DNA of 41,584 bases. Source: an uncultured Erysipelotrichaceae bacterium (GTDB lineage Bacteria; Bacillota_I; Bacilli_A; Erysipelotrichales; Erysipelotrichaceae). The stretch's first letter is position 1; each line of letters begins with the position of its first letter. The position numbers and the translations under genes are program-made. The DNA is taken from assembly GCA_900315065.1 (NCBI GenBank), contig OMXQ01000010.1, positions 1-41,584 on the forward strand, read 5' to 3'. The notes below the pieces were generated by a model. That model made no database searches. It saw only the letters and a program-made list of their open reading frames with translations, and was not told the origin of the DNA. Of this stretch, positions 5,898 through 9,831 are shown piece by piece.

Positions 5898-6015
5898 GTC
5901 TTTTATCAAGAATGAGTGAGAGAGTCAGCTCTGTGATCTCATACCAACCTGCTTCGTGCGTGGTGGTAAAGCTGACAACGATAAAGAAAGAGTCTAATTA
6001 TCTCTTTCTCTTGTT
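5898..6015 (+). promoter_or_regulatory. Probable SAM riboswitch (SAM-I/IV-like variant) in the metK leader
   Basis: A structured leader upstream of SAM synthetase. P1: TCTTTTATC (5899-5907) with GATAAAGA (5980-5987). P2: TGAGA (5917-5921) with TCTCA (5937-5941). P3: ACC-A-ACC plus TGC (5943-5952) with GCG-T-GGTGGT (5958-5967), loop TTCGT. A 7-bp pseudoknot joins the P2 loop GTCAGCT (5924-5930) with AGCTGAC (5970-5976). This P1-P2-P3-pseudoknot order, the ATCAAGA start and the CCAACC segment match the core of the SAM-I clan, but the P4 helix of classical SAM-I is absent. A following GAAAGAG/CTCTTTC hairpin (5986-6008) overlaps the 3' strand of P1 and has a weak T-tail, so it could be the terminator or could mask translation. 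The class assignment is inference. Confidence 0.65.
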
Positions 6016-6052: not shown

Positions 6053-7144
6053 ATGTCAAAAGTATTTTTCACTTCCGAGTCCGTTACCAGCGGCCACCCG
6101 GACAAAGTCTGCGACCTGATCGCTGACTCCATTCTCGACGAAGCTATTCGTCAGGATCCTGAATCCCACATGGCAGTTGAAGCTACCATCAAGGATGATC
6201 TGATTCTCGTTTATGGTGAAGCCGGCACAAAGGCTGACATCGATTATGAAAAGATCGCTCTTAATGTCATGAAGGAAATCGGCTATGACGAAGAATATCA
6301 TGTCATCGTCAAGGTCAACAAGCAGTCTTCTGAAATCAACGGTGCAGTTGCCCATGATCAGATTTCTGCCGGCGACCAGGGTATCATGTTCGGCTACGCT
6401 GATGATGAAACCGATGATCTGATGCCTTTCGCTATCGACTGTGCTCACAAGCTGGCAAAGAAGCTGGAAGAAGTCAGAAGAGCTACACCATGCCTGAGAC
6501 CTGATGGAAAGACACAGGTTACTGCTGAATATGTAGACGGCAAGCTGACCAGGGTTGATACAATCGTCGTTTCCACCCAGCACACAGCTGATGTTACCCA
6601 GGATGAAATCAAAGACATCGTCATGAACAAGGTCATCAAGCCTGTAGTTGATCCAAAGCTCGTTGACGAAAATACAAAGTACCTGATCAACCCGTCCGGT
6701 TCCTTCGTACTCGGCGGCTCCTGGGGTGACTCCGGCACCACCGGCCGTAAGATCGTCGTTGACTCCTATGGCGGATACGCTCCAATCGGCGGCGGCTGCT
6801 TCTCTTCCAAGGACCCGACAAAGGTTGACAGATCTGCAGCTTACTATGCACGTTATGTCTGCCGCAACATTGTTGCTAACGGCCTGGCTCACAAGTGCCA
6901 GATCGAATTGTCCTATGCTATCGGTGAACCGAAGCCGATCTCTGTCTATGTACAGTCCTTCGGTACTTCCAAATACTCCGATGATGAACTGCAGGCAATT
7001 GTTCTGAAGAACTTCGACTTCTCAGTTGCCAACATCATTAAGGAACTGGATCTGAGAAGACCGATCTACAGACAGACAACCAACTATGGTCACTTCGGCA
7101 AGAAGGACCTGCCTTGGGAACAGTTCAAGAAGATCAATCTGTAA
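6053..7144 (+). CDS. metK: S-adenosylmethionine synthetase
   Basis: A 363-aa cytoplasmic enzyme making S-adenosylmethionine from methionine and ATP. Signatures seen: FTSESVTSGHPDKVCDLIAD (N-terminal ATP-binding His and Asp), GAVAHDQISAGDQGIMFGYA (signature 1), and GGGCFSSKDPTKVDRSAAY (P-loop-like signature 2, where GGGAFSGKDP is usual). It is about 30 residues shorter than the ~395-aa E. coli enzyme; the trimmed segments are loops and no core motif is lost. The start at 6053 follows a GAAAGGG site with about 10-nt spacing. The structured leader upstream suggests feedback control by its product. It ends at a strong terminator. Confidence 0.97.
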   Translation: MSKVFFTSESVTSGHPDKVCDLIADSILDEAIRQDPESHMAVEATIKDDLILVYGEAGTKADIDYEKIALNVMKEIGYDEEYHVIVKVNKQSSEINGAVAHDQISAGDQGIMFGYADDETDDLMPFAIDCAHKLAKKLEEVRRATPCLRPDGKTQVTAEYVDGKLTRVDTIVVSTQHTADVTQDEIKDIVMNKVIKPVVDPKLVDENTKYLINPSGSFVLGGSWGDSGTTGRKIVVDSYGGYAPIGGGCFSSKDPTKVDRSAAYYARYVCRNIVANGLAHKCQIELSYAIGEPKPISVYVQSFGTSKYSDDELQAIVLKNFDFSVANIIKELDLRRPIYRQTTNYGHFGKKDLPWEQFKKINL

Positions 7145-7184: not shown

Positions 7185-7215
7185 GTATCATCTTTGCGAA
7201 TAAGGAGGAATGCCT

Positions 7216-7638
7216 ATGTTTACGAAACTGATGTACATGATAATCGAAATCATCTATGAATGGCATACAAAGCTTATGCGCCTCAACGATACCAGAGCCA
7301 TTCCTTTCAATGACAAGCAGCTCCACTTTATCGTCATCGGCACCATCGGGATGATCATGATCTTTGTCCTCTATCCCCTTTTCAAATGGCTGGCAAAGCA
7401 TAACCACACTATGGTTGTCACCTGGTTCTATGTCTTTACGTGCATGATTGTTCTGACCTTTGCCATTGAAATCGGCCAGGGCTATTCCCATACCGGTAAT
7501 GTGGAGATGGCAGATGTCATTGCCGGACTTGCTGGTTTTATCTGCTTCTTTGCAGTCTTTTCGCTTGTACGCATGTTATATCATCTGATCTGCAGGATCA
7601 TCGCTCATATGAAAAATCCGGATCAGGAAATTCTGTAA
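7216..7638 (+). CDS. VanZ-like membrane protein
   Basis: A 140-aa membrane protein with three to four hydrophobic segments. The family pattern is visible: DKQLHFIVIGTIGMIMIF (the DKxxHF entry motif), then AIEIGQGY and MADVIAGLAGF near the C terminus (the E-x-x-Q and D-x-x-x-N/A-x-x-G motifs of VanZ-like proteins). VanZ confers low-level teicoplanin resistance in enterococci, but most stand-alone members have no known role. The start at 7216 is chosen because GGAGG stands 7 nt upstream; the ATG at 7210 nearly touches that site. It lies directly after the metK terminator, so it may depend on read-through. Confidence 0.7.
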   Translation: MFTKLMYMIIEIIYEWHTKLMRLNDTRAIPFNDKQLHFIVIGTIGMIMIFVLYPLFKWLAKHNHTMVVTWFYVFTCMIVLTFAIEIGQGYSHTGNVEMADVIAGLAGFICFFAVFSLVRMLYHLICRIIAHMKNPDQEIL

Positions 7639-7646
7639 TGAACTTT

Positions 7647-7671
7647 GCCGGAAATTATTCCGGCTTTTTTT
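7647..7671 (+). terminator. Terminator of the VanZ-like gene
   Basis: GCCGGAA-ATTA-TTCCGGC, a perfect 7-bp stem, followed by seven T. Confidence 0.92.
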
Positions 7672-7716: not shown

Positions 7717-9108
7717 ATGGCCCCTGCTTTTGACTTTCATCAATGGATCCTTTCCAGGCAGAATGCTTCCTATATTATCGAAGAAATCAATGAACGCACG
7801 ATTCATCTGAAGACGGCTTATGCAACTGCTGAGATCAAAAGCTATCCGGAAAACACGTATGAATTTTCCATCCGTTCCAATAATGACGGTGCTGTTACTT
7901 TCTATCTCCATTTTGCTTTGACCAATGAAGATCACGCCGTGACTTTGTTCAATGAACTTGTTGCTTCCTTATTGAAACAGAAGGAAACGGCACCGACAAA
8001 GGTTCTTTTATGCTGTTCCTCCGGCATGACGACAAACTACTTTGCCTCAAAACTCAATGACAGTATGGAATTTCTCCATCACACATACGTATTCAAAGCG
8101 GTCTCTTTCAACAAAGTCTATGAACTCGGTTTCCAATATGACATCATCGTCATTGCCCCGCAGGTTGCTTATCTCTATGCCAAAATCCGCAATGTTCTCC
8201 AAGACAAGCTTGTACTGACGATGCCGGCCCATATCTTTGCGGCTTATGACGTTCCCGCAACGATCCGCTTTCTCGATGAGGCAAGAGCCCCTTTCTATCA
8301 CACACCGGAAGCAGAAACCCTCGGCAAGCCCCGCAATGCGGATATCCGCTTCAATATCCTGGCGGTAGGACTTCTGATTGATCTGCCGAAAACAACCCTG
8401 CTCTATCGGCTTTACAAGGAAGGACAGCCGGTAGAAACCGAGACAACCCTCCGGGAATCCACTTCCCTGCAGGATCTGATTGAGATTATGGACACCCAGA
8501 CAAAGCGGCACCCGGATATTGATATCATCTGTCTTTCCATTCCAGGCACTGTTTCAAGAGGCAGGCTCACCCAGCCTTTCTACGGGATCGAAGACTATGA
8601 CCTGCTGCAGAAGCTGCGTGAAAGATACCATAAGCGGATTATCATATGCAACAATTCCAATGCCATTGTCATGGCCCTGCATGCATATCAGACTTCCTAC
8701 CATTCCCTTGTCTATCATTCCCAGCCTACCGGTTCCCTGATTGCCGGGGAAGGCATTGTCATTCATGATCAGCTCGTAACCGGGAAAAACGGCATTGCCG
8801 GTGAAGTACAATATCTGACGCCGGTCATGTATTTCTCTGATCATCTGAAAGAAAAGATCTGGACGCCCGAAGGCATGGCTGAAATTATCGCCAGGGAACT
8901 CGTTTCCATGATTACCTCCATCGGCCCGGAAGCTGTCTTTATCCGCTGTGCCCTGACGCCGGATATGGACATGATCCGCAATTTCCTGACTAATTATCTG
9001 CCGGTTACCTATATTCCGGATCTGATCTATGTCCGCAATATTACTGAGTACTTATTAACTGGTGAATTGATGATGGTAATCCGTGAATTGCGGAATAATA
9101 ATCTTTAG
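7717..9108 (+). CDS. PTS lactose/cellobiose IIB-like domain fused to a degenerate ROK domain
   Basis: A 463-aa soluble protein in three parts. Residues 1-92 are an unrecognised alpha/beta domain. Residues ~94-190 match PTS lactose/cellobiose-type IIB: VLLCCSSGMTTNYFASKL holds the phosphorylatable Cys (99 or 100), followed by DIIVIAPQVAYLYAKI. Residues ~212-463 match the ROK sugar-kinase/repressor fold: ICLSIPGTVSRGRLTQPF and GEGIVIHDQLVTGKNGIAGE. The usual ROK kinase motif E/D-N-D-A-N-A reads CNNSNA here, so the catalytic Asp is Ser, and the Cys-rich zinc motif is missing. No HTH is present, so it is not a classical NagC/XylR repressor. I infer a sugar or phosphorylation sensor. No PTS IIA/IIC gene is adjacent. 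The start at 7717 follows AAAGGAGG. Confidence 0.75.
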   Translation: MAPAFDFHQWILSRQNASYIIEEINERTIHLKTAYATAEIKSYPENTYEFSIRSNNDGAVTFYLHFALTNEDHAVTLFNELVASLLKQKETAPTKVLLCCSSGMTTNYFASKLNDSMEFLHHTYVFKAVSFNKVYELGFQYDIIVIAPQVAYLYAKIRNVLQDKLVLTMPAHIFAAYDVPATIRFLDEARAPFYHTPEAETLGKPRNADIRFNILAVGLLIDLPKTTLLYRLYKEGQPVETETTLRESTSLQDLIEIMDTQTKRHPDIDIICLSIPGTVSRGRLTQPFYGIEDYDLLQKLRERYHKRIIICNNSNAIVMALHAYQTSYHSLVYHSQPTGSLIAGEGIVIHDQLVTGKNGIAGEVQYLTPVMYFSDHLKEKIWTPEGMAEIIARELVSMITSIGPEAVFIRCALTPDMDMIRNFLTNYLPVTYIPDLIYVRNITEYLLTGELMMVIRELRNNNL

Positions 9109-9114
9109 GAGAAT

Positions 9115-9144
9115 TTGACAAAAACTTTACAGAAATGCAATACT
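9115..9144 (+). promoter_or_regulatory. Promoter of the lipoprotein gene
   Basis: TTGACA (9115-9120), 18-nt spacer, AATACT (9139-9144), giving a leader of about 50 nt. Confidence 0.55.
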
Positions 9145-9198
9145 GATGACAGAGGAAGATGCTTCCGGATTGACAGAAAAAGAAAGGATGTGAAGCGT

Positions 9199-9831
9199 AT
9201 GAAACTCCGTCAATTTCTCCTTGCATCTGTAACAATTGCAATGCTTTGCGGCTGCAGCCCGGCTGCTTCTGCTCCTTCTCAGACAAGTCCTGAACCATCT
9301 GAAAAAGCAGAGGAAAAGGCATTTCTTCAATTTATAGATCTGACTTCACAAGAACACAAAGAAGCTTATTTTATAAACGGTGGACATATCGTTTACTTGT
9401 GGAACTTCTCCTGCAGTCCGTATGGTTCCTATGCAATCGACATGACGACTTATGACCATGGCAATCTCATAAAAAAGGAACACGTCGGCATGATGACTGC
9501 CAATGCACCGCAGAGTGCGGACGGGAAAATCTGTCTGACTTTTCCAAGTCCGTTTGAAGTCACCCTGATTGACGGAACCCTTGAGACCTTCGGCACCATG
9601 ACAATTCCGCTGCTGGAAAATATTGATAAGACAGATTACCTGTGGCTGGCAGATACAAATACCAACCTGCCGTCAGAAGCAGGCGATCAGGAAATCTATT
9701 TTGCCCAGATCGGCTTTGCACGCGAAAAAGGCAGTACTGTTCCTTACGAGTATTTCGGCAATGCTGCCGTAGATACTGATTGCGATTATATTTATGCTTT
9801 CTCCATTCAATTCAAAGACAAAAAATCATAG
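9199..9831 (+). CDS. Putative lipoprotein, 210 aa, function unknown
   Basis: A secreted, lipid-anchored protein. The N terminus has two basic residues, a hydrophobic core (FLLASVTIAML) and a lipobox L-C-G-C with the acylated Cys at about residue 19. A low-complexity Ser/Pro/Ala/Glu linker follows, then a beta-rich domain of about 165 residues with no motif I recognise. The start at 9199 is the ATG giving a proper signal peptide; AAAGGA precedes it by about 11 nt. An upstream in-frame extension would place charged residues before the signal peptide. It has its own promoter and is convergent with glgB. Confidence 0.7.
   Translation: MKLRQFLLASVTIAMLCGCSPAASAPSQTSPEPSEKAEEKAFLQFIDLTSQEHKEAYFINGGHIVYLWNFSCSPYGSYAIDMTTYDHGNLIKKEHVGMMTANAPQSADGKICLTFPSPFEVTLIDGTLETFGTMTIPLLENIDKTDYLWLADTNTNLPSEAGDQEIYFAQIGFAREKGSTVPYEYFGNAAVDTDCDYIYAFSIQFKDKKS

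Follow-up and report, generated by a model that had tools for sequence, protein, structure and literature searches.

In an uncultured Erysipelotrichaceae bacterium, a single gene encodes a protein of 463 residues in which an N-terminal domain (N domain), a PTS IIB domain of the lactose/cellobiose type and a ROK domain of the pseudokinase type follow one another in one chain. The gene lies in a stretch of 41,584 nt of contig OMXQ01000010.1 (assembly GCA_900315065.1), which is here called the window and to whose positions the coordinates refer unless another locus is named. We lean towards the view that this fused protein is a cytoplasmic sensor of both the PTS phosphorylation state and a ligand of its ROK domain, which would act by protein contact. 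The evolutionary basis of this reading is that the fused ROK is sister to ROK proteins with an HTH region that are encoded beside a separate N-IIB gene.

Gene and Protein Architecture

The start codon of the fused gene, as read from the sequence, is ATG 7717, and a Shine-Dalgarno sequence stands upstream (Table 1). A terminator-like stem precedes the gene and a promoter-like match, also from a pattern scan, follows it at 9115-9144; together they weakly suggest that the gene is probably transcribed alone, as its own transcript, the terminator-like sites of the scan being near chance in number (5 observed vs 4.0 expected). The scanned neighbouring genes of the window belong to metabolism, transport and translation. 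The upstream neighbour (7210-7638, plus strand) reads, by a sub-threshold match, as a small VanZ-like membrane protein, and the downstream one (9190-9831, plus strand) as a lipoprotein-like protein whose family was not recognised; a SAM riboswitch (RF00162, 51.2 bits) is found at 5900-5987 (plus strand), 5' of the S-adenosylmethionine synthetase gene (6053-7144). A plasmid search gave no match.

A first-pass annotation of the window had proposed a fusion of a IIB-like domain with a ROK domain, and this proposal is borne out by two lines of evidence. Pfam assigns both PTS_IIB and ROK to the protein above their curated cut-offs and gives no further match, neither to a PRD nor to an HTH. The AlphaFold2 model of the whole protein, built on an alignment of 73 sequences (mean pLDDT 89.4), matches known structures of both families, with the IIB fold found at residues 93-195 and the ROK fold at residues 212-458. 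An assembly artefact as the source of the fusion was ruled out by the three full-length paralogues present in the same genome (31-35% identity) and by the many full-length relatives elsewhere.

Table 1. Features of the fused gene and its product, in window coordinates.
Feature	Position	Strand	Evidence
Terminator-like stem with T tail, between upstream VanZ-like ORF and fused gene	7647..7664	+	Pattern scan
Shine-Dalgarno AGGAGGA, 7 nt 5' of the start codon	7703..7709	+	Read from sequence
CDS of the N-IIB-ROK fused protein, 463 aa	7717..9108	+	ORF and translation, Pfam, AlphaFold2 model m6b691e2e70e2
N domain, residues 1-92, alpha-beta5-alpha, TriTu-like fold	7717..7992	+	Separate AlphaFold2 model, structure matches, conservation
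PTS IIB domain, lactose/cellobiose type, residues 93-195	7993..8301	+	Pfam PF02302, structure matches
Cys100 codon, predicted phospho-acceptor	8014..8016	+	Alignment to phospho-Cys of 1h9c, conservation
ROK domain, pseudokinase type, residues 212-463	8350..9105	+	Pfam PF00480, structure matches
N312-N313-S314-N315-A316, degenerate N-D-A-N-A motif	8650..8664	+	Alignment columns
Glu363, aligned with Glu of the sugar-binding GE-x-GH motif, His lost	8803..8805	+	Alignment to 5nck, conservation

The IIB Domain and Its Phosphate Supply

The Pfam match to PTS_IIB covers residues 95-155 (E 2.9e-5; 25.1 bits vs a cut-off of 23.6), and in the model the whole domain superposes on IIB-chitobiose (2wy2; Z 18.4, rmsd 1.2, 103 of 103 residues) and on IIB-cellobiose (1iib; Z 17.9). 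A Cys placed as in these carriers had been noted at first, Cys99 and Cys100 both being proposed for a test of phosphorylation; of the two it is Cys100, not Cys99, that aligns with the phosphorylated Cys of 1h9c. Among relatives collected by BLAST and HMM searches, Cys100 is found in every one of the 62 fused and 17 standalone proteins (79/79), and Pro148-Gln149, the P-Q motif, likewise in all 79, whereas Cys99 is variable and is replaced by Ser in 30 of the 62 fused proteins. These counts leave aside alignment A2, whose loci had been fetched with a pattern containing that very Cys. The active site of the IIB domain thus looks live, as judged from its conserved residues.

As to the supply of phosphate, HPr, one IIA-Lac and several IIBs were found in the genome of the window. 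The EI N-domain (PF05524) was not found in this MAG (G000, 96.5% complete), and its presence in 59/60 relatives suggests that an assembly gap may be the reason. In the same genome (L174 430-1731, minus strand; G000:C91) an HPr domain is fused to a D-2-hydroxyacid dehydrogenase-like protein in a chain of 433 aa, the dehydrogenase part being recognised by reading the sequence, with no profile match.

The ROK Domain

In the C-terminal part, the Pfam ROK match covers residues 248-364 (E 6.4e-8; 32.9 bits vs a cut-off of 22.9). The closest folds to the model are those of N-acetylmannosamine kinases, with NanK (6jdc) at Z 23.1 and rmsd 3.0 over 232 residues, while residues 212-458 also match MecR2 (4ija, Z 20.9), Lmo0178 (5f7r, Z 20.4) and Mlc (1z6r, Z 18.3). 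The losses noticed at first sight are general in the family: the ATP-site motif DxGGT and the zinc motif CxCGxxGC are each present in 0/134 fused proteins, and neither Pfam nor the AlphaFold2 model reveals an HTH in the protein of the window, in agreement with the earlier reading that a DNA-binding domain is lacking. The N-D-A-N-A motif had been described as shortened to N-S-N-A; it is indeed degenerate, but it is complete in length and reads N-N-S-N-A, with Asn in place of the Asp that is the catalytic base and Ser in place of Ala. In the column of the catalytic base, D is present in 47/73 sequences and N in 26/73, the window protein having Asn313. Two residues of the sugar site are kept, Asn312 in 67/73 sequences and Glu363 in 73/73. 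From these residues the kinase seems inactive, with some of its ligand site retained.

The same residues bear on two catalytic alternatives. In the first, the protein would be a conventional ROK sugar kinase, dependent on ATP and with a diverged ATP site, as the closeness to N-acetylmannosamine kinases (Z 23) might suggest; the replaced catalytic Asp and the absence of the DxGGT and zinc motifs throughout the fused proteins make this most improbable. In the second, which is still quite improbable, the protein would be a soluble, PEP-driven sugar kinase in which phospho-Cys100 passes its phosphate directly to a ROK-bound sugar, so that the PTS replaces ATP. This would explain why Glu363 and Asn312 are kept when DxGGT is gone, and one chain does carry both a donor and an acceptor domain; it is at odds with the Asn that occupies the catalytic position in the window protein and in 26/73 sequences, and with the position of the lineage, nested among HTH-ROK repressors.

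The N-Terminal Domain

The first 92 residues had been set down as an extra domain of unknown nature, and the former part of this description stands. The latter does not: modelled alone with AlphaFold2, residues 1-93 give a confident alpha-beta5-alpha fold (pLDDT 91.3), whose nearest structural counterpart is TriTu, an immunity protein (7zhm_C; Z 8.9, rmsd 2.5, 78 residues; Foldseek E 6.6e-3), followed at Z below that of TriTu by frataxins and secretion chaperones. The likeness is one of fold, at about 10% identity. Sequence searches of the PDB with the N domain gave no significant match, and its matches in BFVD were all weak. His65 and Phe66 are near-invariant across the fused proteins, His65 being kept in 77/79 of the fused and standalone relatives collected by BLAST and HMM searches, and among the relatives searched the domain was met only alongside IIB. 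It is probably a small protein-contact domain.

The best fold match could instead point to a protein related to toxin immunity, the more so as Pfam TriTu is matched by 4/73 family members (best E 1.9e-5), the window protein not being among them. We give this reading hardly any credence, as the likeness does not go beyond the fold, the domain keeps company with IIB, and the scanned window neighbours serve metabolism, transport and translation.

Origin of the Fusion

The two halves of the fused protein are also found as separate genes. In three loci from three genera (L037, L038 and L039), a gene for N-IIB (203-217 aa) is followed by a gene for a ROK protein (309-337 aa), and the two genes overlap by 1-29 bp; these split N-IIB/HTH-ROK pairs are new here. 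The ROK of L038 has a significant winged HTH in Pfam (E 8e-7), which is sub-threshold in that of L037 and not called in that of L039; the N-terminal regions of the latter two align with the HTH region of L038 and of other HTH-ROKs.

In the ROK tree, rooted on kinases and one XylR-like protein, the fused proteins group in a single clade (UFboot 100/SH-aLRT 95), as do the split ROKs (UFboot 100/SH-aLRT 97), and the two clades are sisters (UFboot 88/SH-aLRT 93), both standing among HTH-ROKs; this careful version of the tree excludes five long-branched HTH-ROKs and one third of the fused rows. Broad agreement with it is found in the N-IIB tree, where the fused clade also contains two standalone N-IIBs, which look like secondary losses of ROK. 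Many standalone N-IIB genes have no adjoining ROK, a point against the proposed sensor. Because the split ROKs are sister to a single fused clade, the simplest history is apparently one fusion event, starting from a cassette of N-IIB and an HTH-ROK repressor and accompanied by loss of the HTH, so that the split cassettes look like the evolutionary precursor of the fused protein.

Paralogues and Distribution

The fusion is not a one-off: beyond the three paralogues in its genome there are many full-length copies in Erysipelotrichales, and 49/60 relatives carry a match to the fused protein, many of them full-length fusions. Among the matches listed for 247 genomes of the class, those spanning both N and IIB come from the window's order only, and hits outside this order cover the IIB part only. 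The named loci are mostly from Erysipelotrichales, with several paralogues per genome, and further copies are found in MAGs labelled Selenomonadaceae, Veillonellaceae, Lachnospiraceae, Clostridiaceae and Coriobacteriaceae. Since the fused clade of the ROK tree includes copies whose MAGs are labelled Negativicutes and Coriobacteriia, a transfer is suggested, in so far as the labels of the MAGs are followed. In one MAG labelled Selenomonadaceae (L094 7983-11416, plus strand) an N-IIB gene and two fused genes stand in tandem, with gaps of 6 and -4 bp.

Lost motifs and a low identity to relatives, about 35%, would also be the marks of a decaying relic without function. The likelihood of this is very slight, in view of the open frame, the good ribosome site, the strict conservation of Cys100, His65 and Glu363 and the several paralogues per genome.

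Neighbours and Candidate Partners

A comparison of near and far genes found no constant neighbour of the fused genes. RpiR seemed by eye to be a recurrent neighbour and was rejected by this comparison, its frequency within two genes of fused genes being at background (p 0.56); plain IIB and PHP genes show a marginal excess (p 0.05 and 0.04, respectively), and HAD phosphatases near fused genes gave p 0.057. The neighbour statistics are weak. In L177=L087 and L091, which are two MAGs, an HTH-ROK gene lies directly 3' of the fused gene at a gap of 127 bp, and a plain PTS IIB gene lies 2-15 bp 5' of the fused gene in four separate contexts (L076/L132, L197, L206/L135 and L096), L132 being from Faecalibacillus faecis, a relative that can be cultured. 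As a separate observation, a PHP phosphoesterase gene often stands 3' of HTH-ROK genes on the same strand (e.g., L259, L177, L049 and L050), two PHP clusters giving 7 and 10 hits at most two genes from 34 HTH-ROKs (near vs far p 0.005 and 0.004).

The genome of the window itself encodes an HTH-ROK that belongs to the same wider lineage (G000:C102:6185-7159). In the window's genus, fused genes co-occur with HTH-ROKs (9/14 vs 1/22 genomes, p 1.8e-4, a statistic that ignores the relatedness among genomes), and in 5 of the 14 genomes bearing fused genes no HTH-ROK was seen; in family f2 the co-occurrence is absent (p 0.55). The association in the genus may reflect shared ancestry.

The plain IIB genes upstream could also be taken to mean that the fused protein is a soluble subunit of PTS transport, whose IIB hands phosphate to a membrane IIC and whose ROK domain is a substrate or allosteric add-on. 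The intact IIB active site and its P-Q motif would suit such a role, and a gene reading as PTS IIC does lie a few genes 3' of the paralogue C117 (L061). However, fused genes show no excess of IIC genes in their vicinity (1/233 near vs 5/445 far), no PTS gene is present among the scanned neighbours of the window's copy, and the split form of N-IIB pairs with HTH-ROK, not with IIC, so that we regard a transport subunit as unlikely.

Proposed Function

In the favoured reading, that of a sensor acting by protein contact, a PTS IIA of the lactose/cellobiose type would pass its phosphoryl group to Cys100, and by this phosphorylation the state of Cys100 in the IIB domain would report sugar flux through the PTS. 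The ROK pseudokinase domain would bind, without phosphorylating it, a ligand that is probably a sugar or a sugar phosphate, and the TriTu-like N domain would probably serve as the protein-contact surface. As the fused protein has no DNA-binding domain, it would act on a partner by protein contact, by analogy with Mlc and EIICB-Glc and with the HTH-less MecR2; this partner would most likely be a regulator bearing an HTH, for example the HTH-ROK encoded in the same genome. The fused protein would then be a regulator that lost its own grip on DNA and works through its partner.

A phosphorylation-dependent sugar sensor or anti-regulator with its partner elsewhere, as first supposed, is consistent with the evidence. 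The analysis shows the folds, as predicted models, the lost kinase motifs, the conserved Cys100, the split cassettes and the topology of the trees; the phosphorylation, the ligand, the partner and the direction of control are inferences.

Relation to Known Systems

In the fused protein both the domains and the principle are known, and the architecture is new. In Escherichia coli, Mlc is sequestered and held off DNA by dephosphorylated EIICB-Glc (PtsG) (PMC3901232). The control proposed here from gene pairing and fusion is alike in that a ROK protein of related fold would be subject to a PTS IIB; it is unlike in that the IIB is soluble, of the lactose/cellobiose type and joined to a ROK domain without HTH. 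Glc-type IIB differs in fold from IIB of the lactose/cellobiose type.

MecR2 of Staphylococcus aureus is a XylR/ROK homologue whose HTH is lost in strain N315 and which works as an anti-repressor, binding and destabilising MecI (PMC3406092). The fused protein shares with it the ROK fold and, with the form in N315, the lack of an HTH, the latter acting by binding a repressor. A third group is that of PRD-type regulators such as MtlR and CelR, whose IIB domain has a Cys that can be phosphorylated, CelR being composed of HTH, Mga, PRD and mannitol-family IIB and IIA domains (PMC3478281). Such a Cys within a regulator is predicted for the fused protein too, while no HTH or PRD is seen in it by Pfam. 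With the IIB carriers for cellobiose and chitobiose (1iib, 1h9c and 2wy2) the likeness extends to the fold of the whole domain, the loop of the active-site Cys and the P-Q motif, but these are standalone proteins of about 100 aa, whereas the IIB domain described here sits between two other domains. MecR2 is not known to have a IIB or an N domain. TriTu (7zhm) shares the alpha-beta fold of the N domain and little of its sequence, and no toxin partner was seen for the fused protein. No description of a IIB-ROK fusion was found among titles and abstracts of the open-access literature on such fusions or on IIB-bearing regulators, which is weak evidence.

Control of ROK regulators by the PTS is known from Mlc and a membrane IIB; here the IIB is soluble, and it occurs with ROK both in two overlapping genes and, in the sister clade, in one HTH-less chain. 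If the proposal is true, this would be a second, independent control pair of IIB and ROK, and the separate repressor and the fused sensor would form a natural series for learning how the phosphorylation of IIB alters a ROK protein. Many Erysipelotrichales of the gut carry the family in several paralogues per genome, so that it may shape sugar preference in these bacteria.
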